Below, in pieces: positions 13,039 through 37,542 of a stretch of 37,542 nucleotides of DNA. Where the stretch lies: the IMG/VR virus record IMGVR_UViG_3300025430_000053, positions 1 to 37,542 of that record. One strand, given 5' to 3'. The notes beneath the pieces were generated by a model. That model saw only the letters and a list, made by a program, of their open reading frames with translations. It searched no databases and was not told where the DNA came from. The first letter of the stretch is position 1; the number at the start of each line of letters is the position of its first letter. This DNA comes from a virus. The translations under genes were made by a program, and so were the position numbers.

Positions 13039-14679
13039 TTATGGTGTTCCGTATGCTGTTATATTAGCTATTGTGGTAAAGTTACCAGAAGAATCTAAAG
13101 AAGCAATTTGAGTCCCTTGGTAAGCAAAATAAATTTTGCCGCCAGACTCATATATAGAAAAATTAGTTGTTTTGTATGCTCCGTTTACCAGCAAGTTGCC
13201 TACGCCCGCGTCTGTTGACGTGCCGATCGACACGCCGCCAGCGCTAGAGATGCGCATACGCTCCACGGTAGCTGCCTTGAACACCACCGGTGCGCCTACG
13301 TCCGTACCAAACACGAACAGCGTGTTGGTTTGGTCCCAGTACATCTGCGCCTTTTCGGTGCCGTTGTTGTACACCGACAAGGTGGTAAACTGCTGACCGC
13401 CGTTATCAATTGACAGGTTGTTTGAGTTGCCGCCCTTGACGTACAAGGTGGCTGGCGTAGACGTAGAGCCAATTGACACGTTGCCGCTGGCGTCTTTGTA
13501 GAACTGACCAGAACCTAAGTTAACAATACCAGTACCGCCAGTAAGTGTTGTGCTGTAAGTAATGCTGGTTGCGTTTACTGAACCACCGGACAGGTTGGTT
13601 GCTGTGGCTGCAGTTCCACTAATGCCGATTGGCCACGTGCCAACTGCGTTGGTTCCTGAGATTCCAGGGGCGCCAAGTGTGTTAAACGAAATGGTTCTAG
13701 CTACGGAACCGTTAAAGGTAGTTGGTGATGATGCGCCACTACCGCTGTCGTTAAATGTTGCCGCGTTGGCTGTGCTTGATGCTGGGGCGCCAGAGTATCC
13801 ACTGATACCGCTATAACCAGAAACACCAGATCCAGAATAGCCAGAGAATCCTGAGAAGCCACTGTAGCCGCTGTAGCCCGATGCTGCTGTCGCACCAGAG
13901 TAGCCTGATACGCCAGAGTAGCCAGATAAGCCAAGACCACTGTAGCCACTAAAACCACTGAAACCGCTGTAGCCTGATGTACCACTAAATCCACTGTAAC
14001 CAGATGCGCCGGTTGTTCCTGATACGCCGTTTGAACCACTGTAGCCACTAAAGCCACTGTAGCCTGAGTTACCAGTTGGGCCAGTTGATCCATTGATACC
14101 GCTGTAACCAGATGTACCAGATCCGCTGTAGCCAGAAAAGCCTGAGAAGCCAGAGATACCGCTGTTACCTGTTAAACCACTGTAGCCACTAAAGCCCGAG
14201 AAGCCACTATAGCCAGACACGCCAGATCCGCTATATCCAGATACACCAGACCCACTGTAACCACTGAATCCGCTGTAGCCTGATATACCACTGTAACCAG
14301 AGGTGCCTAAACCACTATATCCACTAAAGCCGCTAAAACCACTAAAACCAGATGCGCCGGTAGAAGATGTCCAGTAAAAGCCACTACCGTTCCATCCAAG
14401 ATAAGTGCCAGACACACTTGGTGCGGCCATAAACACAGTGGAGCTTACACCGTTTTGGTAAGGGATTTGGCCTGATGTGCCACCCGATAGATTGCCTGCT
14501 GCCGCAGCGCCAGCTGCGGAGGCAAGCAGTGTTACTGCGCCGCTGGTGTTCTTAAAGTACATCTTGCCGTCGGTGATGTTAAGTGCCAGCTCACCGTTTA
14601 CAAGGTTGCCTGCCGTCGGGGCAACCCCAGAGGTGGCGCTGTAGTACAACGAAATTGGTGTGTAGCCGGATTGGGCCAT
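13039..14679 (-). CDS. Collagen-like tail fibre protein 2 (546 aa)
   Basis: The N-terminal domain (residues 1-105) contains the segment NGELALNITDGKMYFKNTSG, a virion-attachment type common in collagen-like phage fibres. Residues about 108-300 are Gly-X-Y repeats built mainly from GYSGxSGYSG and GFSGFSG units, which should form a collagen-like triple helix. Residues 300-546 are a beta-rich C-terminal region with repeated STSTPATLYVKGG and RMRISSAGGVSIG-like elements, as in trimeric fibre knobs. An AAAGGAA site precedes the start. It shares DNA repeats with the other collagen-like gene 5 kb away, and lies immediately after the glycosyltransferase genes. Confidence 0.85.
   Translation of the reverse strand: MAQSGYTPISLYYSATSGVAPTAGNLVNGELALNITDGKMYFKNTSGAVTLLASAAGAAAAGNLSGGTSGQIPYQNGVSSTVFMAAPSVSGTYLGWNGSGFYWTSSTGASGFSGFSGFSGYSGLGTSGYSGISGYSGFSGYSGSGVSGYSGSGVSGYSGFSGFSGYSGLTGNSGISGFSGFSGYSGSGTSGYSGINGSTGPTGNSGYSGFSGYSGSNGVSGTTGASGYSGFSGTSGYSGFSGFSGYSGLGLSGYSGVSGYSGATAASGYSGYSGFSGFSGYSGSGVSGYSGISGYSGAPASSTANAATFNDSGSGASSPTTFNGSVARTISFNTLGAPGISGTNAVGTWPIGISGTAATATNLSGGSVNATSITYSTTLTGGTGIVNLGSGQFYKDASGNVSIGSTSTPATLYVKGGNSNNLSIDNGGQQFTTLSVYNNGTEKAQMYWDQTNTLFVFGTDVGAPVVFKAATVERMRISSAGGVSIGTSTDAGVGNLLVNGAYKTTNFSIYESGGKIYFAYQGTQIASLDSSGNFTTIANITAYGTP
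13789..14364. repeat. Collagen-type coding repeats (fibre 2)
   Basis: Imperfect 9- to 18-bp repeats of the CCAGAGTAGCC and CCACTGTAGCC type encode Gly-Tyr-Ser and Gly-Phe-Ser triplets. They are the same class as those at 20187-21165 and in the same orientation, but more diverged at DNA level. Confidence 0.9.
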
Positions 14680-15123: not shown

Positions 15124-16094
15124 AAGTACATCTTCCGGTATGCTTTTTCTAAACTATCTTTCCACTTCCACTGGTCCATCTTCTTGTAGACGTTCCACGG
15201 GTCAAGATCACCAAACAGCTGCACTGCCTCTGCTATTGACCTACCGGGAACCACTTCAGGGTAACAACTAAAAACTTCAGCGTTAGGTATTGAAGGAAGT
15301 ATGCGGCTGAATACAATATGGTCACCAAGGCCACAATTGAGAACCACAATGGTACGATCACGGTACTGCAAAATATTTCTAAAAATCTGTTCATCATGCT
15401 CATACATTTCCTTCCTTGTCTCGCTACGAATCCCTCCGTCAGGATTCTTCATGTGCCAGGTAATGGCGTTTGGTACTACTAAAATGCTATAACCTTTTTG
15501 TTGCAGCTGAAAAGTAAACAACGTCTCTTCTCTGTGCGCTACCCTAGATAGTCCTAAATTATAATCTGTTACACCAGCACGATATAAAAATGAACAGTGT
15601 AGATGATCAACTTCTTGGGCTACATTAAACTTGCCCCACTGGATGTTTGGTTCTGAATCAATGTTATCAATTCGTCCAGTTATGCCAGCGGTGTTTGGTA
15701 TGTGTGGTGGTGTCCAAATATGACTACCCACAGCACCCAAATCGGGCCACATATCAATCCAACGATACAACTCTTCTAATACATTTGGTTCTGGCACCGC
15801 GTCATCGTCAACGCGCCAAACCCAATCAAAACCCGCTAGGTTGGCTCGTTGGTGGATGTGGTGCTGACCTTTTTTGTCAGCGTACTGCCACTCCCATGCA
15901 ATACCCTTAATATCTAACATCTGAAAAAAGTGCTGGTACAAAAACTCTTTTCGCATGTCCTGCGGCTCGTCATTGTCATCGTAGACAATCAGCTTATCAA
16001 CCGGCTTGGATTGGTTAATGATGGCATTTAATACTAAGGGCAGTGTTGTGAAGTACCTACCCCGTGTTGCCACGGAACATAGTACTTTACTCAT
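15120..16094 (-). CDS. Glycosyltransferase family 2-like protein fused to a GT9-like N-terminal lobe
   Basis: Residues 1-240 are a GT-A fold glycosyltransferase: an opening strand KVLCSVATRGR, the acceptor/donor acidic motif VDDDAVPEP at 95-103, and HREETLF at about 187-193 in the position of the catalytic ED-type acid. Residues 245-324 change character and read IVVLNCGLGDHIVFSRILPSIP, which is the GxGD motif that begins GT9 enzymes. The protein then ends, and the next gene supplies the second GT9 lobe. The start overlaps the stop of the upstream GT/methyltransferase gene (ATGA). The substrate is unknown. Virion glycosylation or host surface glycan remodelling are both possible. Confidence 0.8.
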   Translation of the reverse strand: MSKVLCSVATRGRYFTTLPLVLNAIINQSKPVDKLIVYDDNDEPQDMRKEFLYQHFFQMLDIKGIAWEWQYADKKGQHHIHQRANLAGFDWVWRVDDDAVPEPNVLEELYRWIDMWPDLGAVGSHIWTPPHIPNTAGITGRIDNIDSEPNIQWGKFNVAQEVDHLHCSFLYRAGVTDYNLGLSRVAHREETLFTFQLQQKGYSILVVPNAITWHMKNPDGGIRSETRKEMYEHDEQIFRNILQYRDRTIVVLNCGLGDHIVFSRILPSIPNAEVFSCYPEVVPGRSIAEAVQLFGDLDPWNVYKKMDQWKWKDSLEKAYRKMYL

Positions 16095-17307
16095 TGTCCC
16101 ACCTGCAGATCATCAAGTTGCCCGGATTGCTCTGGTCTACTTGGCGCATTGCCGAGGAAATATTACCCTCAAAGTCGATGTACTCAAACGTAAATCCAGG
16201 GAAGTCTTTTTCAGTCAACCCATGCAGCTTGTGGTGCTCTCCCCAGAAGCCCTTTGGCTCGTTGTGAGGCACGGTAATTAAAAGGCGTTTGCAGTGCCCT
16301 TTTAGCCTCTCTACGAGCTCTAAACCGTTGTCTAGGTGCTCCACTACCTCGAACGCTATAATCGTGCTGTAGCGCCCCAAATCGAATGTATTAATGTCGG
16401 CGCGATAAAACGTTGCATTATCAGACCACTGTTGTTCTTTGGCTACGTTTATAATAATTGGGTCGTAGTCAAGGCCAATGTAGGCTTGCGTGTTTAAGAA
16501 CTGGTAACCGTAGCCTGTAGAGCATCCAATCTCAAGCACCGAGCCCGGTAGTACGTTTTTCCCCGCCCATTCATATCTTTGGGTTTCACGGGGAAACACT
16601 GGATCACCTTTGAGGAATACTGCCCGCTCGTAGTTGTTTGACAGGCGCCAGCGGTACCAGTCTAAGTTGTATTCCTTTGCTAACCGAAGTTCGTTTAGCA
16701 AAAACTTGTTGCCCCAGTCTTGTACCAGCTGCGGGTCGTGCATCGTGCCCTCGGCCTTGTGGTAGATTGGAAACTGACCATTATCCCAGTTTGCGTCCAT
16801 CGTAAACCCAGCATCTTGGGCTTTTAGGCAAAACTCAATGTCTTCGCAGCCACCGGTGCTGTATTCTTCGTTAAGGTAGCCAATCGTTTTAAACACCTTG
16901 GCGTCAATTAACACACAAAAGAACACCGCAAAACGGCGCTGGGTAATGGGTGAGAACTGTGTCCACACAGAGCAAATATCAGCACCACTGTCTAGCTTTT
17001 CAATCCAATCTGGCCCCAATAGCTGGGTGTCGTTGTTAAGGAGGATGATTTTGTCCCCCTTAGCCTTTTTAATGCCCCTGTTTGTAGCCACTGCAAACCC
17101 AGCGGGTGCCGGATCCCAAATAGCATCAAAGTGGGGTATTGCGCTTGCCAGATAGTTAATGTACTTATCTGTGTTATCTGTACACCCGTTGGCGCTGATA
17201 ATCAGCTCTACATCGGTCAAGTCGGTGTACTTAATAATCGAGTCTACACACGGCTTTAAGTACTTCTCACAATTATTGTAAGTCGGTATTACAATGCTGT
17301 ATTTCAT
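16087..17307 (-). CDS. Glycosyltransferase-methyltransferase fusion (406 aa)
   Basis: The N-terminal part (1-215) is a family 2 glycosyltransferase with IVIPTYNN at 5-12, LLNNDT at 89-94 in the DXD position and GGCEDIEFCLKA at about 152-163. The C-terminal part (245-406) is a class I SAM-dependent methyltransferase with the glycine-rich motif VLEIGCSTGYG (257-267), an acidic loop GLDYD (278-282) and FEVVEHLDN (319-327). The fusion suggests that a sugar is added and then methylated, or that a methylated sugar is capped. AAGGAAAAC precedes the start. The gene begins its own unit behind a promoter-like motif and a 14-bp palindrome, in the middle of the tail-fibre genes. Confidence 0.85.
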   Translation of the reverse strand: MKYSIVIPTYNNCEKYLKPCVDSIIKYTDLTDVELIISANGCTDNTDKYINYLASAIPHFDAIWDPAPAGFAVATNRGIKKAKGDKIILLNNDTQLLGPDWIEKLDSGADICSVWTQFSPITQRRFAVFFCVLIDAKVFKTIGYLNEEYSTGGCEDIEFCLKAQDAGFTMDANWDNGQFPIYHKAEGTMHDPQLVQDWGNKFLLNELRLAKEYNLDWYRWRLSNNYERAVFLKGDPVFPRETQRYEWAGKNVLPGSVLEIGCSTGYGYQFLNTQAYIGLDYDPIIINVAKEQQWSDNATFYRADINTFDLGRYSTIIAFEVVEHLDNGLELVERLKGHCKRLLITVPHNEPKGFWGEHHKLHGLTEKDFPGFTFEYIDFEGNISSAMRQVDQSNPGNLMICRWDNE

Positions 17308-19681: not shown

Positions 19682-19855
19682 TTATTCCTGAAACACAGGG
19701 TTATCTACAGGAGTGGTAATAATCTTGTACCACTTATCAAAACGGGCTTGCTTCATTGCCTCAATTTCTTCAGGCGTAAGCGTGTTGTCATCATCTAGGA
19801 TTAGTGCATCACTAAATGTGTACCCGTTTTGTGTGATTGTGTAATCAATTATCAT
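19682..19855 (-). CDS. Small protein downstream of collagen-like fibre (57 aa)
   Basis: The preferred start is ATG 19855, which overlaps the stop of the collagen-like fibre gene (TAATG). The longer frame to 19885 would overlap further without a better start. The product MIIDYTITQNGYTFSDALIL... has a short beta part, then an acidic helical part with TPEEIEAMKQARFDKWYKII. It resembles the short accessory proteins that follow fibre genes in aquatic phages. Its function is unknown, with fibre assembly a possibility. Confidence 0.65.
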   Translation of the reverse strand: MIIDYTITQNGYTFSDALILDDDNTLTPEEIEAMKQARFDKWYKIITTPVDNPVFQE

Positions 19856-21396
19856 TATTGTTGCGCGGTTGCTACTGCGTCCCAAAAAGTATCTTGACTG
19901 TTATAAATGCAACCAATATATAAAACTTTACCCGCAACCGTTGTTACCGGCAACGTTACACCAACCGCGCGATACGCGCCACTGGTAGTTGTCCAAGTAA
20001 GTGCTTGTGCGGTTCCGTTATCTTTAATGCGAATAATTAATTTTTGTCCGTCTGTTGGAGTTCCAGAGGGAGTTGCAATTGTTGCCGAAGTTGCCAACGC
20101 GGTTACTTCGTATTGAGTAGCCGTGTTTGGAGTTGGTGTAATGGTTGTTGCGGTGGTAATGCTGGCGGTTAAAATTGTTGCAGGGAATCCTGAGTACCCG
20201 CTGTATCCTGACGTACCACTGTACCCAGAAACACCAGATCCAGAGTATCCAGAAATACCAGAGTAGCCAGAAATACCAGAGTAACCAGAAATACCAGAAT
20301 AGCCAGAAACACCAGATCCAGAATAGCCAGAAACACCAGATCCAGAGTAGCCAGAAGTACCAGAGTATCCAGAAGTACCAGAATATCCAGAAGTACCAGA
20401 GTATCCAGAAACACCAGATCCAGAGTATCCAGAAATACCAGAGTAGCCAGAAATGCCAGAATAGCCAGAGATGCCAGAGTATCCGGAAACACCAGATCCA
20501 GAGTAGCCAGAAGTACCAGAGTATCCAGAAGTACCAGAATATCCAGAAGTACCAGAGTAGCCAGAGTATCCGGAAGTACCAGAGTATCCAGAGATGCCAG
20601 AGTAACCAGAAATGCCAGAATAGCCAGAAACACCAGATCCAGAATAGCCGGAAACACCAGATCCAGAGTAGCCAGAAGTACCAGAGTATCCAGAAGTACC
20701 AGAATATCCAGAAGTACCAGAGTAGCCAGAGTATCCGGAAGTACCAGAGATGCCAGAGTAACCAGAGTATCCAGAAATGCCAGAATAGCCAGAGATGCCA
20801 GAGTATCCGGAAACGCCAGATCCAGAATAGCCAGAAACACCAGACCCAGAATAACCAGAAACACCAGATCCAGAATAGCCAGAAGTACCAGAGTATCCAG
20901 AAATACCAGAATAGCCGCTAAAGCTAGAGTACCCAGAAATACCGCTGTACCCAGAATAGCCACTAAAGCTAGAGTATCCAGAAGTGCCAGAGTATCCAGA
21001 GATGCCAGAATAACCGCTGTATCCCGACACGCCGCTGCCGCTATAACCCGATACTCCGCTACCAGAGTAGCCAGAGTAGCCAGAAAAGCCGGATTTACCA
21101 GAATAGCCAGAGATGCCAGAGTAGCCACTAAAGCCAGAAATACCAGAGTATCCAGAAAAGCCTGAAGAACCAGAAACAGGACCGACAACCTCGGTTGATC
21201 CGTCGCTAAAATAAATGGTTAGGTTACCCGTTGTTGGGTCGTAAATAATGTTGGTAATTAATTTGCCGGGCGAGGCAGCATTGGCGATCTGGGAAACAGA
21301 CGCCTGTTTTGTTACACCATTTTGTACTACAACCGTTTGCTCTATGCCGGTTAGGCTTGTTGCTACGGGTAGTTGCGTTATTGGTAAATTTGCCAT
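19855..21396 (-). CDS. Collagen-like tail fibre protein 1 (513 aa)
   Basis: The N-terminal attachment domain (1-75: LPITQLPVATSLTGIEQTVV and a strand-rich segment ending STEVVGPVSG) is followed by about 330 residues of Gly-X-Y repeats dominated by GYSGISGYSG, GTSGYSG and GSGVSGYSG. A 105-residue beta-rich C-terminal domain contains the segment DGQKLIIRIKDNGTAQALTWTT and ends in a YNSQDTFWDAVA-like strand, typical of trimerising fibre caps. Collagen-like phage fibres form triple helices without hydroxyproline. There is no obvious Shine-Dalgarno sequence before ATG 21396, so expression probably depends on coupling to the IPT/TIG gene just upstream. Confidence 0.87.
   Translation of the reverse strand: MANLPITQLPVATSLTGIEQTVVVQNGVTKQASVSQIANAASPGKLITNIIYDPTTGNLTIYFSDGSTEVVGPVSGSSGFSGYSGISGFSGYSGISGYSGKSGFSGYSGYSGSGVSGYSGSGVSGYSGYSGISGYSGTSGYSSFSGYSGYSGISGYSSFSGYSGISGYSGTSGYSGSGVSGYSGSGVSGYSGSGVSGYSGISGYSGISGYSGYSGISGTSGYSGYSGTSGYSGTSGYSGTSGYSGSGVSGYSGSGVSGYSGISGYSGISGYSGTSGYSGYSGTSGYSGTSGYSGTSGYSGSGVSGYSGISGYSGISGYSGISGYSGSGVSGYSGTSGYSGTSGYSGTSGYSGSGVSGYSGSGVSGYSGISGYSGISGYSGISGYSGSGVSGYSGTSGYSGYSGFPATILTASITTATTITPTPNTATQYEVTALATSATIATPSGTPTDGQKLIIRIKDNGTAQALTWTTTSGAYRAVGVTLPVTTVAGKVLYIGCIYNSQDTFWDAVATAQQ
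20187..21165. repeat. Collagen-type coding repeats (fibre 1)
   Basis: About 1 kb of near-identical 9-, 18- and 27-bp units (CCAGAGTATCCAGAAGTA and CCAGATCCAGAATAGCC types) encode Gly-Tyr-Ser-Gly-Thr/Ile-Ser blocks. Higher-order blocks of about 150-200 bp recur within the array, which indicates recent internal duplication and likely length variation. Confidence 0.92.
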
Positions 21397-26829: not shown

Positions 26830-27267
26830 TTAGTCTACAAACGCTTTCATTTTTTGTGCTGCCTCGAATGTTTTGATTCGAGATATGACTTCACGGGCTT
26901 GCAGTGTAATAAACACCACTGGGGCACCTTCGTCGTCAGGTTGCACAACAAAACGATCACCGCCGTACTTGATAGTGCGAACTAAATCGCCAACATTACA
27001 CCAAGGGCCTTCTGGCCATGGGGTTAAATCGTCTGGGCTCTTATATGCTAAGGGACCAATGCCACGTACTTTAGCTACTGTTTCGTTAAACTTGAGAGTT
27101 TGTCTGGTTTCTTCTACCAAGAAGATACCGCCTTTACTTGTTAGCTTTTCACGGCGCAATTGCACCAATACTCGGTCTCCAAGAATTTCTACACCAGGAT
27201 CTACATCGGGAAAACACTCTGCTTCTGTTCGTGTATCCGGTTCGTCCTTTTCTTTAATATCAATCAC
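26830..27267 (-). CDS. GroES-like phage co-chaperonin (145 aa)
   Basis: Residues 28-130 follow the Cpn10 fold pattern: ILGDRVLVQLRREKL, then the mobile loop with TSKGGIFLVEE, then the strands ETVAKVRGIGP and a late VGDLVRTIKYGGDRFVV. The GGIFL tripeptide region matches the GGIVL of GroES that docks on GroEL, so it probably binds the host chaperonin and helps capsid folding, as T4 gp31 does. The start is GTG at 27267 behind AAAGGG. An extra acidic N-terminus of about 25 residues and a loop near 75-92 differ from bacterial GroES. Confidence 0.85.
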   Translation of the reverse strand: MIDIKEKDEPDTRTEAECFPDVDPGVEILGDRVLVQLRREKLTSKGGIFLVEETRQTLKFNETVAKVRGIGPLAYKSPDDLTPWPEGPWCNVGDLVRTIKYGGDRFVVQPDDEGAPVVFITLQAREVISRIKTFEAAQKMKAFVD

Positions 27268-27756: not shown

Positions 27757-30662
27757 TATTGTCCTTCAGTAGGTGTTTGTGGTTGTGCTGCTTGTTGTTG
27801 CTGCATTTGGTCCATTTGTTGAGCATGTTGTTCTTGGGCTTGTTGCAAACCCTGTTGATGCTGCTGGTCCTGTTGCTGCAACTCCATTTGGTGTTGCTGA
27901 TCTGCTTGTGCCAGACCTTGTTGATGCTGTTGTTGAGCCTGTTGGGCTTCAATTTGTTGTTGAACTTGATTTGCTTGTTGCTCAAACGCTTGTTGTTGGA
28001 TTGCTAAGCCATGCTGACGAATGTCTTGGTTAGATGCTTGGATAGCTTCCATTGCAGATTGGTCTTGTTCGGCTTCAAGTTGAGTTTGGAGCTGATCCAT
28101 TGCTGCGCCAGCGGTAATAGTAGCAATACGCTCTTTTGCCGCGTTGTTGATGTTAGCCATAGCAATATCAGTTGCATTGCGTTGGTTATCAATGCTTGTT
28201 TGGGTGCTATATTTAGCTTGAAGCTCTTGAACTTTTTGCTGCAACTCAGCAATTTTAACTTGATAGTCTTGTTGCATAGCTTGAGTATCAAGCTGCATCT
28301 TAGACTGGGCTTCTTGCATTTTACGTTGTGTCTCAGCTGTCTGAGTCTTAACAATTGCCGCAGCGGTTGGGTCAGACATAAGAGCTGTTTGCTGTTGTTG
28401 CTGTTGAGCTTGGGCAACTTTTTGGGCTAGACCTTGAATTTGTTGTAAGAATGGTCCAATAGTTTGCTGTGCATCTTGGCCAACCATTTGTGATGCCATT
28501 GCCAAGGCTTGTTGTGCTTCTTGGTCTAGTGGCGCTTCTTGATGCAACTTAAGGATGTCTTCACCACCAGCAGCATGCGCAACATAGCCACGCATAGATT
28601 GTAAATAGTGCAGTGTTAAGTGCTGCTTGATATGCTCAAGTGCATGAGGAGCAAACACTGGTCCAATTAATGGGTTACCACCGTACGCAGGATTCATTGC
28701 ATACTCTAAGTGAATCTTAAGGTGGGCAATATGGTCCTGGTCGGGGTAGGCAGCAGCGGGTCGTCCCATCGTCATAGAGACATTCTCTAAGGCCGGATTG
28801 GATTCGTTGGCGCCTTGTGGGTTTGGCAATACTTCTTCCATTTCCGGAACTTTTAATTGCTTGAGTACACGCTTATATACTGCGCGCATATCAAACATTC
28901 CTGGAGGCGCAGAGCCCGCCATTTGTAACAGTGCTTGATTCTGAGCAAGACGTTGTGTCTCAGAAAAAATGTTGGGATCGGATACTGGACGAACGTCTGA
29001 GTTGTATGCAAAGTCACGTACTTCAATCTCAGTGCCAGACTGGTTGTCCATATCTTGCAAGTACCAATGATTGATACGGGAAATAATGGCCAGTGATTTT
29101 TCTTGGCTGCGATGCAGGCGAGCGTGAATACTAGAGAATACTTTAGCGCCCTGCTCAATCAGAGCTTGGGTTGTGCCCACTGGCATCTGACTGTTAGCGT
29201 CAGCAATCTTTTCTTCTGCGGTAGTAACCACGCCTTTAGCTGCTTGAGTTAACCAACCTAGTAAATCAAACAATACGCTAGATGGTGGATTGAATGGCAT
29301 TGGCATGGCGATCTGACGAATGTCAGTTACACCGGCGCCAGCTTCTACTTCAATTACTTGGGTAGGTTCAATTCGATCAGACTGTCCAGACACGCGTCCA
29401 GTTTTGAGCTTAAGCATTGTCTGAGAGTTGTTGATATGAGCAGCATCAAGCAGAGCACGTAAAGCACCAGTGAGAGCAGCAGACAAGCCGCCAATAAGAT
29501 GGGGGAGACCAATAGCATAAGCACCACGCCAAGGGATGAATTTAAACTCAACCATCCAGTCCAGTTTTTCGCGCTTCTCATCGTTTGCATCCCAGTTGCG
29601 GTAGAGTGATAATACTTTGCTTGTTGATTCGTCAATAGTCAGAATGTATGGGGCGCGTTTACCTTCGGTCTCTGGATCTTCATCCAGTCGCATAAAGCAA
29701 GTAATCTCATAAACTCTACGTAATTCGTCAATATTTTTTGAAGGCATATCAATACCCTCAATTTTATCGTTTGCTGCTTTACTACGTGTTTGGTCGTTTA
29801 GCGGCGCGTCAGATGTATAATCTAAATTATCTAAGTCACGGTACAAACCAGCATCAATACGTTTTAGGTACTCATCGCCAGTAATGTCTTGTTGCTCAGT
29901 AACACGCTGCGCTGTGTAAAAGTTGGTTGATGCGTAAGGTAGGATGATGTTGTCAATTGGTACCCACTCGCACGTTGGGCGAGCTTGCTCATCATCATAC
30001 ATCCACTTGAGGTACTGTGAACCACCAAGTGGCAACTGAGTAAACAGTTGTTCCATCTCATCGCGGAACTCAGGAACTTGCTGTGTTAACTGCCAGTTAA
30101 GGAAGTCTACTTTTCGTTCAGCAACTTCTTCTTTTGCTTTGTCGTCGTTTCCTTTGATGTTGGATTTGACGATGCCGTCTGACGGTAATAGCTCTTTGGA
30201 CGCAGAGGCTGCGAAGTCAACGCAAGCCTCGGCCATGACGGGATGAACAACTTTAGAAGCGCCGTCGAAAGTAGCACCACCAGGAGCGTCCTTACCAAGG
30301 CCGGTCCTACGAAGTCCCTCTTCATATTGTTTGTCTCGTTGTTTACGAGCTTCTTTATCTACGTCAATGTAGTCCAGATACTCATTTGCTAAAGTGTCTA
30401 ATGTTCCTTCATCAAACTCTTCTGCAAGGTTTGCATAAAACTCTGGATTCTTAAGTGGGCTTGATTTTTCTACGTAGTTTACCACCACGGAACCATCATC
30501 AAGCTCAATGACTTCTTGCTCTACTTCGTCTGAATCTAATCCAAGTATGTCTTCATACTCTTCCATGTCAGCGTCTTGCTGCTTTGCGTCCTTGACTTCG
30601 CTTTCGCGATCAAGGCCAGGCAAATTGCCGCCAGCTTGGATGGGAAATTGTGGTTGTGCCAT
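27756..30662 (-). CDS. Portal protein (P22-like, long form, 968 aa)
   Basis: The dodecameric portal through which DNA is packaged. An acidic N-terminus (1-80) precedes a core with KVVHPVMAEACVDFAASASKE (about 130-150), QLPLGGSQYLKWMYDD (about 215-230) and the helical stem region LLGWLTQAAKGVVTTAEEKI...ANSQMPVGTTQALIEQG (about 460-500), typical of podophage portals outside the T7 group. The last 225 residues are a Gln-rich helical tail (repeats of QQQ and HQQGL), like the long barrel of P22 portal. At 968 residues it exceeds P22 (725) and T7 (about 535). No strong Shine-Dalgarno precedes ATG 30662, but a promoter candidate lies about 40 bases upstream. Confidence 0.87.
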   Translation of the reverse strand: MAQPQFPIQAGGNLPGLDRESEVKDAKQQDADMEEYEDILGLDSDEVEQEVIELDDGSVVVNYVEKSSPLKNPEFYANLAEEFDEGTLDTLANEYLDYIDVDKEARKQRDKQYEEGLRRTGLGKDAPGGATFDGASKVVHPVMAEACVDFAASASKELLPSDGIVKSNIKGNDDKAKEEVAERKVDFLNWQLTQQVPEFRDEMEQLFTQLPLGGSQYLKWMYDDEQARPTCEWVPIDNIILPYASTNFYTAQRVTEQQDITGDEYLKRIDAGLYRDLDNLDYTSDAPLNDQTRSKAANDKIEGIDMPSKNIDELRRVYEITCFMRLDEDPETEGKRAPYILTIDESTSKVLSLYRNWDANDEKREKLDWMVEFKFIPWRGAYAIGLPHLIGGLSAALTGALRALLDAAHINNSQTMLKLKTGRVSGQSDRIEPTQVIEVEAGAGVTDIRQIAMPMPFNPPSSVLFDLLGWLTQAAKGVVTTAEEKIADANSQMPVGTTQALIEQGAKVFSSIHARLHRSQEKSLAIISRINHWYLQDMDNQSGTEIEVRDFAYNSDVRPVSDPNIFSETQRLAQNQALLQMAGSAPPGMFDMRAVYKRVLKQLKVPEMEEVLPNPQGANESNPALENVSMTMGRPAAAYPDQDHIAHLKIHLEYAMNPAYGGNPLIGPVFAPHALEHIKQHLTLHYLQSMRGYVAHAAGGEDILKLHQEAPLDQEAQQALAMASQMVGQDAQQTIGPFLQQIQGLAQKVAQAQQQQQQTALMSDPTAAAIVKTQTAETQRKMQEAQSKMQLDTQAMQQDYQVKIAELQQKVQELQAKYSTQTSIDNQRNATDIAMANINNAAKERIATITAGAAMDQLQTQLEAEQDQSAMEAIQASNQDIRQHGLAIQQQAFEQQANQVQQQIEAQQAQQQHQQGLAQADQQHQMELQQQDQQHQQGLQQAQEQHAQQMDQMQQQQAAQPQTPTEGQ

Positions 30663-30698
30663 AGATTATTTTATTTGGAATTTGGTGGGCGGGGAATC

Positions 30699-30721
30699 AG
30701 CCCTTATTTTAACTAATACGC
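30699..30721 (-). promoter_or_regulatory. T7-type phage promoter candidate 7
   Basis: The minus strand reads GCGTATTAGTTAAAATA then AGGGCT, with predicted +1 at 30704 (an A rather than G). It lies between the terminase stop and the portal start. Confidence 0.6.
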
Positions 30722-30740
30722 TATTTTAGGCGTATCCGCC

Positions 30741-32186
30741 CTATTGGGCATACGGATTAACAAATCTCTTATTTCTATCATCGTCAGCGTAGTCATAATC
30801 ACGGGCTGGTAGATAGTCTAACTGTAGCCAATTGTCGTCCCTAAGTATCCGTAATGCCTGTGAAAGGGAGTCTACGTAGTCATCATGCCCTCCCATTTCA
30901 GGAAACGAGCAGACTTGGCGTAAAAAACGCTTAGCCCAGTCGGCAAACTCTCCAGGTTTCTTAGGATCTTCTGGAATGAAGATTTTTCCTTTGGCTACCA
31001 AAGGAGCTACGATGTTTAATCGCTGGACTTTGTCTGCCCTGCCCGGATTGTATCCTTGAACGGGTACTCCAGCGCCTCTAAGCTCTTGGATCAGTGAAAT
31101 ACCGGCTGATTTATCTTCCATCAGTATTAAATCCGCTTTTTTACCTTTTCCAAAATCATTATCTGAGCCATAAACAACTTCTTTAAAGTCATTAACTACT
31201 TTACGGCGTAATTCTGGGTAAGACAGGTGTTCATCCCAAGAATCTAACAACATTGCGCATGTACCACCGTCAGTTTGCTCAAACACGCCCCATACTGTGC
31301 ATGCTGTTGGGTCGTTGTGTGTTTTTTCGCTGGTCGCTGGGTCGTAACTGGCAAGAACATACTCTAACACTGGGGTAGGTTTGTCAGCAGGCCACATTTT
31401 AAATTGCTTACGTTTGATAATGCCTGATGACTCGGGGTCAAGAATCTCACCATAGATCTCTTGGCGACCAATGTCGGTGCCATCATACGTCTCTAGCTGT
31501 TTGAAGAACGTTTCTGACAGGTTTTCTCTGTTGTCGAACGATGACGCGTTGACAACGTAGACGTCGCCCCCAACTTTGCCTTCGTTAAGGTCAACGATGA
31601 GCTCGCGTGGCTTGGGGGTGGTGGTGATGATCTGCTGGACACGGGGGATTCTAGGATCCTTAAGTCGCAAAGTGAACTGTACACCATCGTATGCGTCGTC
31701 AAGATAGTCGAAGGCGCACAGCTCGTCAAACCAAGCTCCGTGGTATTGCTTACCACGATATCGTTCTGGTTCGGATGCTGGAATCCCTTGAATGATTGAT
31801 CCGTTGATGAGGGTAATTTCAAAGAGGGACTTGTTGTAATCTCGTATAAGGCTCTTGGGTATGATATTGAGAAGACCGGAGTCTCCTTCGAAGCAAGTTG
31901 CACGAATATCATTAGAGGTTGGGGCGGTGACAAGCCAGCGAGTGTTGTCGTAGGTAGCAGCGCGGATGCCAATCCAATGGCTAGCAGTGTGCGTTTTGCC
32001 AGATCCACGACCGGCAAGCATAAGGAATGTGTCGTACTCTCCATCTTCGGGTTCTCTTTGGTGCGGTAGGGCTTGAACAGCCCATTTAGCTTGCCAAACC
32101 ATGAGGTCTAACATTGGTTTAGGCCAATGCTGCCTGTTCTCCATGAATTTGGTTAGGTATTTTTCTTTTGTTGGGTCTAATGGCAT
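30741..32186 (-). CDS. Terminase large subunit (481 aa)
   Basis: The DNA-packaging motor ATPase and nuclease. The ATPase part shows Walker A GRGSGKT at 59-65, Walker B with catalytic acid in AWFDEL (Asp154, Glu155) and the coupling motif TTTPKP at 188-193. The RNase H-like nuclease part shows SYDPAT (Asp282), LMEDKSAG (355-362) and a final GHDDYVDS with Asp435, Asp436 and Asp439. Length and motifs fit the Terminase_6 type rather than T7 gp19. The start ATG 32186 overlaps the stop of the intein-like gene by 10 bases, and its AGGAGAAGG ribosome-binding site is formed by codons of that gene's last residues. Confidence 0.93.
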   Translation of the reverse strand: MPLDPTKEKYLTKFMENRQHWPKPMLDLMVWQAKWAVQALPHQREPEDGEYDTFLMLAGRGSGKTHTASHWIGIRAATYDNTRWLVTAPTSNDIRATCFEGDSGLLNIIPKSLIRDYNKSLFEITLINGSIIQGIPASEPERYRGKQYHGAWFDELCAFDYLDDAYDGVQFTLRLKDPRIPRVQQIITTTPKPRELIVDLNEGKVGGDVYVVNASSFDNRENLSETFFKQLETYDGTDIGRQEIYGEILDPESSGIIKRKQFKMWPADKPTPVLEYVLASYDPATSEKTHNDPTACTVWGVFEQTDGGTCAMLLDSWDEHLSYPELRRKVVNDFKEVVYGSDNDFGKGKKADLILMEDKSAGISLIQELRGAGVPVQGYNPGRADKVQRLNIVAPLVAKGKIFIPEDPKKPGEFADWAKRFLRQVCSFPEMGGHDDYVDSLSQALRILRDDNWLQLDYLPARDYDYADDDRNKRFVNPYAQ

Positions 32187-33169
32187 GCAATAAATCCTTC
32201 TCCTACGAGAAAGCTTCCATCTGGGCTGTCAGTTTCGATATGTACACAATTTTGTGGCTGGATCTGAACGATCTCATCAACATACCGCCACTGTTGGCGT
32301 ATTTTTAAATTAGGGGATACTTGGTTTTCAATCAAACGTAATCGAGTTTTAATTTCTAGGGAATGCCCCGATTTGTTTGCTTGCTTATACAGTTTTGTTT
32401 TACAACCAAGTGATTCGGCAAGGTACTGAATCTGTTTAGCTTCAAGTTTATTTCGAGTAGTTACCCGAAACCTATCTCGTTTTGCGTTATATTGGCGCGA
32501 CTTTGCGTGAATAATTCCACGAAGCAGTTCCAATCGTTGTTCTTCCGATGCAAGTAGGTAGTTATCCGGAATACTTGTTGGAATGTTTGGCACCAAATGA
32601 GACTTGATGGTTGGCTGGGTAATAAATTTTTGTTGCCCGTTGTGGGTGATTCGTTTTGGAATCAGTTTATACCCAGCATCTTTGAATTTACGATGCACAA
32701 ATTCGTCTGTTCCAGGGGGTGCGTACATGGTATCGTCATACTTTCGATTAAAAAACCAAAAGCCAAACACAAAAGGTGGCACTGGAAGGGTTTGCGTGGG
32801 GAATTTCAGTGGGTCTGCTGTGGGAACTGTGTACTCATGGCGGTTTTCCCTGCCACGAAGCGGTAGTTCTTTAAGTTCTTCCAATGATTTGATAGCTATT
32901 GGGCGTGAAAACTTACGCTGGCCTTTGTATTGGTTTACCCGTTTTCTGTATTTTTCGTTTTCTACAGGTAAACAAAGGTTTAAGTCGCCTTTGATAGACA
33001 ACCCATCGTCAAAGTAAACTGCATAGCAATTATCAGAACGGTATTTTTGAACGAGTTTAACCCGAGCAGGTTTCCCATGTCGGTCAAAAACTATATCACT
33101 TTCAGTTATATGTTCGGCTATTTTCCAATAGTCAAGGGTTAACACCCTTTGTGTTGCTAGTATCGCCAT
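32177..33169 (-). CDS. Free-standing intein-like Hint protein with degenerate homing endonuclease region
   Basis: The 330-residue protein resembles an intein without exteins. An N-terminal Hint-like part (1-75) reads TQRVLTLDYWKIAEHI, then DIVFDRHGKPARVKLVQKY. The middle (about 130-270) has two LAGLIDADG-like regions, VFGFWFFNRKYDD and LELLRGIIHAKSRQYN, in which the metal-binding aspartates are not apparent. The C-terminal splice-type block reads CVHIETDSPDGSFLVGEGFIACH and ends on the penultimate His, without the final Asn. The block A Cys/Ser also seems absent (Ala-Thr). Splicing and cutting therefore look impaired. It overlaps the upstream gene by 38 bases and the terminase by 10. Confidence 0.75.
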   Translation of the reverse strand: MAILATQRVLTLDYWKIAEHITESDIVFDRHGKPARVKLVQKYRSDNCYAVYFDDGLSIKGDLNLCLPVENEKYRKRVNQYKGQRKFSRPIAIKSLEELKELPLRGRENRHEYTVPTADPLKFPTQTLPVPPFVFGFWFFNRKYDDTMYAPPGTDEFVHRKFKDAGYKLIPKRITHNGQQKFITQPTIKSHLVPNIPTSIPDNYLLASEEQRLELLRGIIHAKSRQYNAKRDRFRVTTRNKLEAKQIQYLAESLGCKTKLYKQANKSGHSLEIKTRLRLIENQVSPNLKIRQQWRYVDEIVQIQPQNCVHIETDSPDGSFLVGEGFIACH

Positions 33170-33449
33170 AAAAGTTTTGTAAGACCCAGTTGTCTAGCCA
33201 GCGCCCTAACAGCGCTCGAATTCGTATCTGAACTTGATGCGGTAATCTACGGATATCCATCACGTCTGACGTGCCCGATGTTATTTTTAATCGGAACTGC
33301 AGGTACTTGCTGGTTTCTCTATCCAATACGGATTTAGGCATGTCTACCTGGTCTAAGTTATAAAGATCGCAGACAAGCAATCTAAAGCCTTGGAATTCGC
33401 CTTCGCTGTTTTCCAGTGCCCCTTGGATTTGGTAAACGTACTTGTTCAT
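33132..33449 (-). CDS. Unknown first gene of the late region (105 aa), possible small terminase position
   Basis: The preferred start is ATG 33449. A further in-frame ATG at 33467 would give six more residues and lies inside the promoter-like motif. The product MNKYVYQIQGALENSEGEF... has a strand-rich first half and a basic helical second half (RLPHQVQIRIRALLGRWLDN). The place just before the Hint and terminase genes is where small terminase subunits usually lie, but I see no DNA-binding helix-turn-helix, so that role is only suggested by order. No strong ribosome-binding site is present. Confidence 0.6.
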   Translation of the reverse strand: MNKYVYQIQGALENSEGEFQGFRLLVCDLYNLDQVDMPKSVLDRETSKYLQFRLKITSGTSDVMDIRRLPHQVQIRIRALLGRWLDNWVLQNFYGDTSNTKGVNP

Positions 33450-33465
33450 ATGTTTACTAATACGC
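33443..33465 (-). promoter_or_regulatory. T7-type phage promoter candidate 8, overlapping a start codon
   Basis: The minus strand reads GCGTATTAGTAAACATA then TGAACA. As at 27480-27502, the last A plus TG form the next gene's ATG. It is the first copy met when entering the late region from the control region. Confidence 0.5.
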
Positions 33466-33496
33466 ATATATGGCCGTTTCGTACCTTATTACAAAA

Positions 33497-33514
33497 AGTT
33501 ATATTGATATAACT
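33497..33514. promoter_or_regulatory. 18-bp palindrome, operator-like
   Basis: AGTTATAT and ATATAACT form a perfect inverted repeat around TG, 48 bases upstream of the first late gene start. It is a plausible protein-binding site. No partner copy was seen elsewhere. Confidence 0.55.
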
Positions 33515-33525
33515 AAAAGTAGTCA

Positions 33526-33722
33526 TTGACACACTTGACACACTTGCCAGTGGATTTTGACACCTACCCCTCCACGCTATTTATTATTTTTTTTAAAAAA
33601 ATTAAAAAAATGAAAAGAAGTGTGTCAAGTGTGTCAATCGCTTGTAAGTCCTTGATTTATAAGGGACCCCCTAAAAAGAAGTGTGTCAATTTACTGGCAA
33701 ATTTGACAGTCTTGACACACTT
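33526..33722. repeat. Iteron-like array of TTGACACACTT with A/T-rich centre
   Basis: Six exact copies of an 11-bp element occur. Two are forward and overlapping (33526-33536, 33535-33545), three are inverted (33618-33628, 33627-33637, 33679-33689) and one is forward (33712-33722). There are two partial copies near 33557 and 33703. Between the first two groups lies an A/T-rich tract (33580-33616). TTGCCAGT (33544-33551) and ACTGGCAA (33693-33700) form an additional inverted pair. The arrangement matches replication origins with initiator iterons plus an unwinding tract, or a multi-operator repressor region. Confidence 0.8.
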
Positions 33723-33852
33723 CCCTAAGAAATTATTAAAAAAAAATTTTAAAACATAGGATTTTGCACAAATTCGTGCTTGGTCAGGGGCCCGGCCGGA
33801 AGGGGAGGGGGTCTAAAAAAAGCGGGGTCGCAGGACTGAAAAGGGGACTGTC

Positions 33853-33985
33853 TGCACCAAATTGGTGCATGCACCAGACTGGTGCATTAGCGCACTGACA
33901 TGGTGCATATGCACCAGTCTGGTGCACGGGTGCTGCACTGCAACATGGTGGACTGGTGCGCTGGTCTATGCACCATTGTGGTGCA
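33853..33985. repeat. Left array of 17-bp palindromes TGCACCA-N3-TGGTGCA
   Basis: Full copies begin at 33853, 33870, 33910 and 33969, and a partial copy (CGCACTG-N3-TGGTGCA) begins at 33891. Central triplets differ (AAT, GAC, GTC, TTG, ACA) while the arms are conserved, the signature of a dimeric protein-binding site. The same element recurs at 37198-37288 beyond the plus-strand cassette. Confidence 0.88.
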
Positions 33986-33993
33986 TGGGTAAA

Positions 33994-34093
33994 CTGGTGA
34001 GCTGGTGAGCTGGTGAGCTGGTGAGCTGGTGAGCTGGTGAGCTGGTGAGCTGGTGAGCTGGTGAGCTGGTGAGCTGGTGAGCTGGTGAGCTGG
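33994..34093. repeat. 8-bp tandem repeat GAGCTGGT
   Basis: About twelve uninterrupted copies of GAGCTGGT lie directly after the palindrome array. No credible gene covers them. The period of 8 is not a multiple of three, so the repeated His-Gln-Leu-Thr-Ser-Ser-Pro-Ala frames on the minus strand are by-products. The core shares AGCTGGTG with both coding repeats at the left end of the window. Confidence 0.93.
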
Positions 34094-34203
34094 CTTGATG
34101 CGCGTGCGAGGGTGCTGGGCTGGGGTGGACACCATATCGAGCCAGTAGATAACAGAGCGCACCCCATAATCCCCAGCAAGGCATCTAATCGGCTCATAGA
34201 GAC

Positions 34204-34250
34204 GAGATCGCATATCGTTGATGGGGTAGCCTACAACGATGCACGATCTC
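34204..34250. repeat. 47-bp inverted repeat in the cassette leader
   Basis: Arms GAGATCG-N3-ATCGTTG and CAACGAT-N3-CGATCTC are complementary over 7+7 positions, interrupted by an unpaired triplet, and separated by 13 bases. It could form a cruciform or an RNA stem, or be two pairs of protein half-sites. Confidence 0.75.
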
Positions 34251-34329
34251 TACGCTTTCAATAGATATAAGGGCTGGCTGGTCGTTATTGCATCGCACCA
34301 AATAGATTAGGGTAAACACTTACTTCACT

Positions 34330-34378
34330 AGCTCACGAAATGAGCTTATGATCTTGCTTACTGGCTCATTCGATGAGC
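34330..34378. promoter_or_regulatory. Pair of related inverted repeats upstream of the amidoligase
   Basis: AGCTCA-N5-TGAGCT (34330-34346) and GCTCAT-N3-ATGAGC (34364-34378) share the half-site GCTCA and lie about 34 bases apart, ahead of the amidoligase start. ACTAGCTC at the left and GAGCTAGT at the right also pair with each other. An operator for an autoregulated cassette is the likeliest reading. Confidence 0.6.
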
Positions 34379-34466
34379 TAGTAGTATTCAGTAATAGATA
34401 TGGTGTAAGATCGTGAAGCCTGTAATTTTTTACTGGCTTTTTATCAACTTACTTAATGGAGTTTTT

Positions 34467-35828
34467 ATGAATAAATTATTAGATATATGGCTCGCTCACT
34501 ATGCTGGTAATGGTGATGTAGATGGTCGCAAAACATTAGTTCACTATCGAGTTCGTGACAACTTGCTGTCAGGATGCCACAAATCTTATCGGCATTATTT
34601 TTCCAGTAATCCAAGTGGATGGCTGGGCAAAAAGTTCGCTTTTAAAATGGTAGGTGGTTTAATCGGTAATGCTCTGCGAGACGGTAGTGATGATCTTGAG
34701 GAGATTCTCGACTATCTGAATGATGATCGTGATCTGCGCTCTACGCTCTGCTGGGGTGACATCATCAACAATTTATTTTCGGTAGAGATTCACAACTGCT
34801 CCGACTGTAATCGCTTAGAGCATGAAGATAATATGCACTGGGCTTACGATGACTATCGCATCTGCGATTCTTGTCGTGATCGTAATTACCACTGGAGCGA
34901 TTATCGTGACACCTATGTCAGAGATGACGATGACGAAGCCGATGAGGATGGTGTGATCGGTGAATATCACTCCAGCTCTGAATCATTCGATGGTATCCCC
35001 AGTTTGCACGATAAGCGCAAGAAGCCGATCTACTTAGGGCTTGAGCTTGAAGTCGAAGTAAACGATAGCGCAGATCGCTCCAATAAAGCGCAAGAGCTAC
35101 TCGATGCCATTAGTAATCATCGCTCCGATATTGATGGCTCTAGCTATACCTATGCTCTATGCGAGCATGATGGCTCGCTCGATCATGGCTTTGAGATCGT
35201 CACGAATTTTACTGGGCTTGATATTCATGCGAAGCAATTAGAGTTCTTTAAGAATCGTTGGAGATCGGTGCGCTCGCATGACACTTCAACTTGTGGATTG
35301 CATATCCATATCTGCAAGTCAGATATGACGCTCTACCATGCTAGTAAGCTCGTTTTGTTTATCAACGATCAGTCGAATGATGCGCTTATCTATGCGCTCG
35401 CTCGCAGATCATCGGATAGCTACGCAAAATTTCACGATAAAAAGCTTAATCTGCATTGGCTCAAGGAAGCTAAGCAGTATGACAATAAACGACACCAGCT
35501 CCAAAACTTAAATCAAGATCGCTACGAAGCTCTGAATTTTCAAAACTCCAATACCATCGAGTTCAGATTGTTTAAGGGATCGCTCAAGTATCAAACGATC
35601 ATGGCTTGCTTAGAGTTTACTTATGCGAGCTGGTTTTTTACCCTTGATGCGAGCTTGAATGAGCTTACTACTGCGAAGTTTTTAGAGTTCATCTGTAAGC
35701 CTGAAAATAAGCAAGACACGATCAACTTGAGAGCGTATTTATCAAGTAAAGGTTTTACGCTCCCTCGCTCTGGCCTTGTAAAGCAAAACCCTCGTATCAC
35801 CCCAGTAGTAGAAGCAATCGAAGCATAA
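34467..35828 (+). CDS. Amidoligase-like COOH-NH2 ligase with zinc-binding segment (453 aa)
   Basis: The C-terminal half (about 185-400) carries the signature of the amidoligase_2 family of the glutamine synthetase/glutamate-cysteine ligase superfamily. It has YLGLELEVE (189-197), CEHDGSLDHGFEIVT (232-246), CGLHIHI (276-282) and NTIEFRLFKGSL (362-373). These enzymes join a carboxylate to an amine with ATP. The N-terminal part (1-110) is helical and unrecognised. Between them a CSDC (111-114) and a CDSC (133-136) pair form a zinc-binding segment, followed by an Asp-rich linker. The start ATG 34467 is preceded by GGAG five bases away. A GTG further upstream (34413) has no such site. The next gene encodes an ammonia-releasing partner. 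Confidence 0.82.
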   Translation: MNKLLDIWLAHYAGNGDVDGRKTLVHYRVRDNLLSGCHKSYRHYFSSNPSGWLGKKFAFKMVGGLIGNALRDGSDDLEEILDYLNDDRDLRSTLCWGDIINNLFSVEIHNCSDCNRLEHEDNMHWAYDDYRICDSCRDRNYHWSDYRDTYVRDDDDEADEDGVIGEYHSSSESFDGIPSLHDKRKKPIYLGLELEVEVNDSADRSNKAQELLDAISNHRSDIDGSSYTYALCEHDGSLDHGFEIVTNFTGLDIHAKQLEFFKNRWRSVRSHDTSTCGLHIHICKSDMTLYHASKLVLFINDQSNDALIYALARRSSDSYAKFHDKKLNLHWLKEAKQYDNKRHQLQNLNQDRYEALNFQNSNTIEFRLFKGSLKYQTIMACLEFTYASWFFTLDASLNELTTAKFLEFICKPENKQDTINLRAYLSSKGFTLPRSGLVKQNPRITPVVEAIEA

Positions 35829-35858
35829 ATATCAACTTAACTTAAAGGAATTTATATC

Positions 35859-36863
35859 GTGTGTTTACTTATCACTCAAAACTCAAACGCTCCAGCTCTC
35901 TCTGACGAATGGCTCGAAGATTTTTACGACTACAACTCTGACGGAGTAGGTGTCATGCGCTCCGACAATGGCTCGCTCATCATCGAAAAGATTTTGCCTA
36001 AAACTGCAAAAGATTTCGTGAAGTTTTATCGTGAGCATATCGAGGGAAAATCTTGCGCTTTTCACTTGCGTATGAGAACTCATGGAGCTACCGATCTTGA
36101 CAACTGCCATCCATATGAAGTTCTCAACTCTAAAGATCATGGTGTCGATCTATGGCTTATGCACAATGGCATCTTACATACCGACAATAAAGCCGATATC
36201 ACGAAGTCAGACACCTATCACTACATCAAGGATTATCTGCGACCTATGCTCGCTCACAATCCCGATTTTGCTTTTAGCGAAGCATTTGCAGAATTGATCG
36301 GTGAGCATATTGGCGCATCAAATAAATTCGTGCTTATGGATAACGATGGTCGTATTGTCACGATCAATAAAGACGAGGGTGTTTACTGGGGTGGTTTATG
36401 GCTCTCAAATACCTACGCTTGGAGCGCCAGTAAGAGCGCCAGTAAGACACCTATCAAGGGCATCAAAAAAGCTCGTAAGCAAGTCGCAGAGAAGCCAGTA
36501 TCAACTTATTACCCCCCAGTCGGTAAGTCATACTCTCACTCGTATATGAATGGCTCTTACTATGATGGTGAAGTTCGACCAAAATCATACGATTACGAGG
36601 ATGCACTCGACTACGATATCGACTATATGCTCGATATGATGCTGGAGGAGGGTTTTACTACTGCAAGCACCCTGACTAATTACGAAGTTCGCTCATTCAT
36701 TGACGAGTTCGGTGAAGCAAGTTTTTTTGATCTCTGCTACATGGTGATTGATACTCGCTTGAGCGAGGGTGAATTTATCCAAGTCATCAACAATTACGAT
36801 CTCGCTCGCAAGTCATTCTCATGGCTGGCTTACGAATCTACTAAGATCAGGGAGTTTGCATAA
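35859..36863 (+). CDS. Class II glutamine amidotransferase-like protein (334 aa)
   Basis: The start is GTG 35859 behind AAAGGA, and the second codon is Cys, which becomes the N-terminal nucleophile after Met removal in Ntn-type glutaminases. Residues 66-76 (CAFHLRMRTHG) and 99-106 (WLMHNGIL) match the arginine/glycine and HNG motifs that bind glutamine. The glutaminase domain ends near residue 190. The C-terminal 140 residues have no recognised domain: a Tyr/Ser-rich linker, then an acidic helical part with EDALDYDIDYMLDMMLEE. Together with the amidoligase it could supply ammonia from glutamine for amide formation, or remove glutamyl groups. The stop overlaps the next start (TAATG). Confidence 0.83.
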   Translation: MCLLITQNSNAPALSDEWLEDFYDYNSDGVGVMRSDNGSLIIEKILPKTAKDFVKFYREHIEGKSCAFHLRMRTHGATDLDNCHPYEVLNSKDHGVDLWLMHNGILHTDNKADITKSDTYHYIKDYLRPMLAHNPDFAFSEAFAELIGEHIGASNKFVLMDNDGRIVTINKDEGVYWGGLWLSNTYAWSASKSASKTPIKGIKKARKQVAEKPVSTYYPPVGKSYSHSYMNGSYYDGEVRPKSYDYEDALDYDIDYMLDMMLEEGFTTASTLTNYEVRSFIDEFGEASFFDLCYMVIDTRLSEGEFIQVINNYDLARKSFSWLAYESTKIREFA

Positions 36864-36955
36864 TGACCGATACTCGTTTGCGTTGTCCGATCTGCTCTCG
36901 TCATAAAAGATGGGGTGGTAATGTTCTCTGCGTGTTTTGCAGAGCATTACTTTAA
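36863..36955 (+). CDS. 30-residue zinc-ribbon microprotein
   Basis: A very short frame translationally coupled to the amidotransferase (TAATG). It contains CPIC (8-11) and CVFC (23-26) separated by a basic stretch HKRWGGN, a minimal zinc ribbon. It ends just before the terminator, as a true last gene of an operon would. It may bind nucleic acid or act as a regulator or adaptor of the two enzymes. Confidence 0.6.
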   Translation: MTDTRLRCPICSRHKRWGGNVLCVFCRALL

Positions 36956-36977
36956 AACTAAACTCTTAAACCCTTTT

Positions 36978-37001
36978 AAACCCGCTTAGGCGGGTTTTTT
37001 T
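36978..37001 (+). terminator. Rho-independent terminator of the plus-strand cassette
   Basis: AAACCCGC and GCGGGTTT form an 8-bp stem around TTAG, followed by a further T-run. It lies 23 bases after the zinc-ribbon stop. Confidence 0.92.
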
Positions 37002-37197
37002 ATTCCTAGTCGAGGGATAGGGTTTAAGCGTTTAGTTTTGAGCTTGTACGCTGGTTTTACTGGAGTTTGCTACCCCATAAAAGCAGCATATCGGCTCATT
37101 TAAACGATCACCATTGATTTTAAAATAGGGAGGATGATATAGGTATAGGACAACTGAACGAACGGCTCTAAAGCCCTTTAAAACGGCTCTATGCGAG
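37002..37197. other. Non-coding spacer after the cassette
   Basis: No supported gene is seen. AACGGCTCT occurs twice (37161-37169 and 37182-37190), and one GGCTCAT is shared with the cassette leader. A minus-strand frame at 37032-37244 has no coding signs. Confidence 0.6.
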
Positions 37198-37288
37198 TTC
37201 ACCATAATGGTGCGTAGTTTGCACCAAAATGGTGCATTATGCACTTTTTTGGTGCAGCACTATTTTGGTGCAGCACAACATTGGTGCA
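37198..37288. repeat. Right array of 17-bp palindromes
   Basis: Five copies of the TGCACCA-N3-TGGTGCA element begin at 37198, 37220, 37240, 37256 and 37272. The copy at 37220 is perfect. The others have diverged in the left arm while the right arm TGGTGCA is kept (TGGTGCG in the first). The last three are spaced exactly 16 bases apart and share one base. Confidence 0.85.
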
Positions 37289-37320
37289 TCATGCTGCATC
37301 GCACCATGCCCGAACCCCGA

Positions 37321-37542
37321 TGGACTGGGTAGGTGTGACTGGACTGGGTAGGTGTGACTGGACTGGGTAGGTGTGACTGGACTGGGTAGGTGTGACTGGA
37401 CTGGGTAGGTGTGACTGGACTGGGTAGGTGTGACTGGACTGGGTAGGTGTGACTGGACTGGGTAGGTGTGACTGGACTGGGTAGGTGTGACTGGACTGGG
37501 TAGGTGTGACTGGACTGGGTAGGTGTGACTGGACTGGGTAGG
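37321..37542. repeat. 19-bp tandem repeat at the right edge
   Basis: About 11.7 exact copies of TGGACTGGGTAGGTGTGAC run to the window end and probably continue past it. No gene is visible in them. Identical copies suggest recent expansion and explain a contig break here. Confidence 0.95.

Follow-up and report, generated by a model that had tools for sequence, protein, structure and literature searches.

Introduction

Whether a ligase, an amidotransferase and a minute zinc ribbon that are encoded side by side in a freshwater phage constitute one amide-forming system, and on which target such a system might act, is the question raised by the locus treated here. The stretch of DNA that was analysed, referred to as the window, comprises 37,542 nt (positions 1-37,542 of IMGVR_UViG_3300025430_000053) and represents a partial genome. 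The pairing of amidoligases with glutamine amidotransferases was proposed in 2009 on the basis of comparative genomics (Iyer et al., as cited in PMC10580990), and in phages the pair has already been published for the OM43 phages MEP401 and MEP402 (PMC10580990), where the pair of phage Marvin is also cited. In LUZ24-like phages, amidoligase and GATase genes are embedded in larger clusters (PMC3890496, PMC3517423). As regards their role, the accounts in PMC10580990 and PMC11318856, both citing the 2009 work, put forward a modification of the cell wall directed against superinfection.

Organization of the operon

The module of an Amidoligase_2 ligase and a class II amidotransferase is real, possesses intact catalytic residues and is common to many phages and mobile elements. 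In the window it is arranged as follows:

34467..35828, plus strand: Amidoligase_2 ligase of the predicted GS/GCS fold, 453 aa (PF12224, phrog_16683, fold, invariant residues)
34797..34874, plus strand: four-cysteine segment of the ligase (C111, C114, C133, C136), kept in 100-106 of 112 homologues
35859..36863, plus strand: class II glutamine amidotransferase (N-terminal cysteine hydrolase), 334 aa, GTG start (motifs, fold)
36863..36955, plus strand: accessory zinc ribbon (CPIC...CVFC), 30 aa, ATG start, found in the window population and in L013
36978..37004, plus strand: intrinsic terminator, AAACCCGC TTAG GCGGGTTT followed by a T-rich tail, stem at 36978-36997

The ligase reading frame opens with an ATG at 34467, closely preceded by GGAG, and its stop codon ends at 35828, while the GTG of the amidotransferase at 35859 is preceded by AAGGAA. 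This start is common to the homologues and yields a Met-Cys N-terminus. The ATG of the zinc ribbon shares one base with the amidotransferase stop codon (TAATG). Since a terminator follows at 36978, the structural genes of the phage occupy the minus strand and tandem arrays flank the genes on both sides (33994-34093 and 37321-37542), the preliminary description of a terminated operon that diverges from the structural genes between repeat arrays proved accurate. A promoter-like site at 34324-34352 was discarded, its score not exceeding that of shuffled sequence.

Another contig from this population, L012, matches window positions 30661-37421 with 100% identity and reads on beyond the window end into small rightward ORFs and a D5-type primase-helicase. 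This continuation places the pair at the start of a rightward region, which is presumably expressed early. In the window, the right-hand array consists of 11.7 copies of a 19-bp unit and reaches the contig end; L012 holds about five copies and continues, so that either the copy number varies or the assembly collapsed it. Clusters of the words TGGTGCA/TGCACCA, which form small palindromes, additionally flank the operon at 33853-33990 and 37220-37290.

Two enzymes with intact catalytic residues

The ligase scores 33.1 bits against Amidoligase_2 (PF12224), for which the curated cut-off is 22, and matches phrog_16683 with E=4e-27. Its AlphaFold model (mean pLDDT 78) resembles gamma-glutamylmethylamide synthetase as the top match, followed by glutamine synthetase, Dop and PafA; the E-values of these fold matches are modest (about 2e-3) and their class is consistent. 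Ten residues, namely G191, E193, E195, D235, S237, G241, E243, H279, H281 and R314, are invariant in 112 viral and bacterial ligases. The predicted fold together with the acidic, histidine and arginine residues of a metal/ATP site thus indicates membership of the GS/GCS fold, in agreement with the initial assignment. A one-to-one mapping of the ligase residues on those of glutamine synthetase is tentative. In a profile alignment with bacterial glutamine synthetases only the GxHxH motif was aligned, without significance, and a search for sequence matches to solved structures returned nothing besides a single chance match to an arylsulfatase. The conservation of TxEFR and CGxHxH among the bacterial ligases is partly selected for, as this set was collected by these very patterns; the viral set was collected by other patterns and displays the same residue conservation.

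The four cysteines of the segment at 34797-34874 are probably zinc-binding. The preliminary description had regarded this CxxC segment as an extra of the phage enzyme, a notion that is contradicted by its occurrence in roughly 90% of the homologues (100-106 of 112).

For the amidotransferase, the AlphaFold model (mean pLDDT 82) matches GlmS, PurF and EgtC, each with a probability of 1.00, while the Pfam GATase_4 score of 14.7 bits remains below the curated cut-off of 23; all 17 viral amidotransferases match GATase_4 likewise weakly. A clear fold match despite a score below the cut-off points to a divergent class II amidotransferase. In a profile search, HxRxxT and HNG were aligned with PurF and GlmS at E-values of 0.06 or worse. 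The motifs MC, HxRxxTHG, NCHP, HNG and SDT show little or no variation among the 17 viral proteins, in which M1 and C2, H69, R71, T74 to G76 (THG), N82 to P85 (NCHP), H102 to G104 (HNG) and S117 to T119 (SDT) are invariant. The nucleophile is placed as expected, M1-C2 being invariant in the viral set and Met-Cys being present in 104 of 106 copies, and the glutamine-binding motifs of class II enzymes (HxRxxTHG, HNG and the D of SDT) are present and aligned with PurF/GlmS. The modelled GlmS/PurF/EgtC-like fold and the conserved motifs therefore speak for the proposed glutaminase-type Ntn enzyme with Cys2. A loss of ATP- or glutamine-binding residues, which would have counted against the system, is observed in neither enzyme.

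A nearly obligatory gene pair

In phages as in bacterial mobile elements, the coupling of ligase and amidotransferase is almost obligatory. Viral loci that were found by the amidotransferase alone carry the ligase directly upstream in 19 of 19 cases, and those found by the ligase carry the amidotransferase downstream wherever the contig extends that far. Among bacterial loci found by the ligase alone, a class II amidotransferase follows within 1 kb in 73 of 80, these 80 being the best of 359 relatives and skewed to Ruminococcus and its kin. The remaining seven comprise three that run off the contig and four without a downstream amidotransferase, one of which, L075, has it upstream instead. A ligase without an amidotransferase nearby was encountered at L098, L117 and L118 and in Clostridioides phage AR1086-1. 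Hence, the conserved co-occurrence that the preliminary description had named as a check, and whose absence in relatives would have spoken against it, is borne out.

Moreover, the distance matrices of ligase and amidotransferase correlate across 93 loci with a coefficient of 0.94, a value reached by none of 2000 permutations, and with 0.95-0.96 within the viral and within the bacterial loci. As close linkage alone also produces joint descent, this correlation is a sign of the lack of partner swapping rather than of physical contact. Conservation and co-occurrence of the pair taken together exclude chance.

A third gene outside the core

The 30-residue zinc ribbon is a real but accessory gene. 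Its reading frame at 36863-36955, with the start overlapping the amidotransferase stop, belongs to the operon as originally described. It is confined to two phage lineages, the window population and L013, whose amidotransferase is 57% identical to that of the window and whose related ribbon occupies the same place. In the other viral loci the slot behind the amidotransferase is taken by unrelated small ORFs, and no third gene proved to be conserved there. This distribution rules out the ribbon as a core component. Consequently, of the three-part system initially claimed, the folds, the catalytic residues and the coupling of ligase and amidotransferase stand, while the ribbon as a component and the CxxC segment as an extra have to be given up.

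Among the occupants of the slot are ORFs of 26-27 residues with a single membrane helix, located directly behind the amidotransferase in L014 and L019-L022; in Ruminococcus, for instance in L047, tiny hydrophobic ORFs likewise follow the pair.

Genomic neighbourhood and probable target

In annotated phages, the adjacent pair is present in a Manatee Spring podovirus, in the OM43 phages MEP401/402 and in mycobacteriophages of the Marvin group. By terminase and portal, the window is closest to MW202545 and the Caulobacter phages RW, GB2A, RLK and KcrB, and since none of these is among the ligase and amidotransferase matches, the pair is accessory to the structural module.

Many Ruminococcus copies adjoin serine recombinases, NikA-like mobilisation proteins and DUF960, DUF1643 or DUF4314 genes, and a Polynucleobacter copy adjoins a tyrosine integrase and a relaxase; the ligase occurs in 2 of the 61 genomes searched around this Polynucleobacter genome. 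When 97 proteins encoded next to the bacterial copies were compared with PHROG, integrases and invertases were the most frequent matches and two of the proteins matched one terminase family; the 25 families listed, of 82, include none for capsid or tail. Placement beside integrase, relaxase and serine recombinase genes, together with the lack of capsid and tail families among those listed, renders the virion target considered in the preliminary description unlikely. DNA, the other target suggested, gained no positive support, and a literature search for phage GATases in connection with DNA hypermodification found nothing. The context thus leans towards a host-directed target rather than a part of the virion. 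A reading as a known defence system was discarded, as the window proteins gave no match to the PADLOC models of anti-phage defence.

In 11 bacterial loci, such as L046, L047, L049-L052, L054 and others from Ruminococcus, a DUF4314 gene is located between ligase and amidotransferase, and behind these pairs lie DUF1643, serine recombinase and DUF960 genes. As several loci of this type can share one genome, they look like repeated mobile cassettes.

Proposed mechanism and alternatives

The reading we favour, with a confidence that stands about midway between doubt and assurance, is that of a minimal two-protein, glutamine-dependent amide synthetase residing on mobile elements, with a host molecule as its probable substrate. 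Removal of Met1 would free the N-terminal cysteine of the amidotransferase, which would then release ammonia from glutamine. By analogy with glutamine synthetase, the ligase may activate a carboxylate by means of ATP and Mg2+, and the resulting acyl phosphate would be captured by ammonia to yield the amide. The four-cysteine segment most likely assists in binding the substrate or the partner protein. Rather than being a part of the virion, the substrate would most likely belong to the host, as a peptide, a small metabolite or a precursor of the cell envelope, and it may be modified early in infection or while the element resides in the host. We infer the transfer of ammonia between the two proteins, the substrate class and the biological role.

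An amide synthetase is favoured by the invariant catalytic residues, by the adjacency and joint descent of the two genes, by their position at the start of the rightward region and by the best matches of the amidotransferase, the ammonia-donating domains of GlmS and PurF. As counterpoints, the E-values of the ligase fold matches are modest, a few ligases lack a neighbouring amidotransferase, and the amidotransferase fold is also found in EgtC, which acts as a hydrolase instead of donating ammonia. The pair might accordingly add and remove, as EgtA and EgtC do in ergothioneine synthesis: the ligase would link an amine to gamma-glutamate or another amino acid, with the hydrolase later cleaving a gamma-glutamyl amide. 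EgtA has the GCS fold, EgtC is among the fold matches with a probability of 1.00, and the top fold match of the ligase, gamma-glutamylmethylamide synthetase, joins glutamate to an amine. On the other hand, GlmS and PurF surpass EgtC in the fold comparison and furnish what sequence matches exist, which tips the balance towards amide synthesis, and the almost exceptionless adjacency of the genes is at least equally compatible with a joint reaction. The add-and-remove scheme is therefore somewhat unlikely, albeit deserving of consideration. Improbable to a further degree is a larger pathway, in which the pair would make a peptide-like metabolite together with further ligases that are host-supplied or encoded at another place in the phage genome. 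LUZ24-like phages do combine amidoligase, GATase, COOH-NH2 ligase and ATP-grasp genes (PMC3890496), and StenR_269 has a similar cluster; nevertheless, the two-gene form recurs on unrelated elements, and ATP-grasp, COOH-NH2 ligase and GGCT families, the companions in clusters of the LUZ24/phiEco32 type, are absent from the 25 listed (nine rarer ones lie beyond) for 105 neighbour proteins of viral copies, the window being a partial genome.

A variant of comparably low probability concerns an amide synthetase that acts on proteins or peptides under the guidance of the four-cysteine segment, and that would put an amide modification on a host protein or on the product of the small, fast-changing ORF behind the pair; in this case the pair would be a tool of host manipulation or counter-defence shared by phages and integrative elements. 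Very little credence is given to the zinc ribbon as a third component that steers the ligase to a virion protein or to DNA. The overlap of the ribbon start with the amidotransferase stop in the window and the related ribbon at the same place in L013 would suit it; against it stand the other viral loci, which have unrelated small ORFs instead of a ribbon, and the pairs beside integrase and relaxase genes, for which no capsid or tail family is listed.

Comparison with described systems

The two-gene amide synthetase favoured here is closest to the pairs of MEP401/402 (PMC10580990) and of the Marvin relatives, which share the adjacent order from ligase to amidotransferase and in which both proteins are homologous to those of the window. 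Over the matched part, identity to the window ligase amounts to 27% for the MEP and 26% for the Marvin-group ligase, and a zinc ribbon of the window's kind is missing behind these pairs. The LUZ24-like Pseudomonas phages tf and UFV-P2 (PMC3517423, PMC3890496) resemble the window in carrying Amidoligase_2 and GATase genes in the early region; their clusters include COOH-NH2 ligase and ATP-grasp genes as well, and ligase and GATase are separated by an HNH gene. EgtA and EgtC likewise combine a GCS-fold ligase with a cysteine hydrolase of the amidotransferase fold, but they serve a cellular pathway with further enzymes, and a PDB profile search revealed no close sequence relation. The same two-gene logic of an ATP-dependent ligase and a glutaminase underlies the amidation of peptidoglycan by MurT/GatD. 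The folds of these proteins are those of Mur ligases and class I glutaminases, and as both differ from the folds of the window pair, MurT/GatD is not its homologue.

The window pair appears to be a minimal form of a pair type already described, to which the survey adds coupling numbers. New points are the quantified coupling, the intact catalytic residues of both enzymes, the assignment of the four-cysteine segment to the ligase and the position of the ribbon outside the core; in addition, the relaxase and serine recombinase neighbours make a host target likelier than a virion target. For a biochemical test, MEP401 with its host and the Marvin group in M. smegmatis constitute cultivable models.

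Further features of the phage genome

Just upstream of the terminase gene, the minus-strand ORF 32177-33169 matches long terminase models, shows a weak LAGLIDADG match and ends in an intein-like C-terminus (GEGFIACH), and the terminase ORF begins inside its end. It is conserved in L003 and L013 and looks like an intein or the relic of one. The left end of the contig bears a perfect 12-bp array at 1-187 (15.6 copies) and a 33-bp array at 317-736 (12.8 copies). Two repeat-rich, collagen-like tail-fibre genes are located at 13039-14679 and 19855-21396, both on the minus strand, with a gene for a GtrB-like glycosyltransferase between them (16087-17307), and a gene for a GroES-like co-chaperonin lies inside the structural gene block at 26830-27267 on the minus strand.
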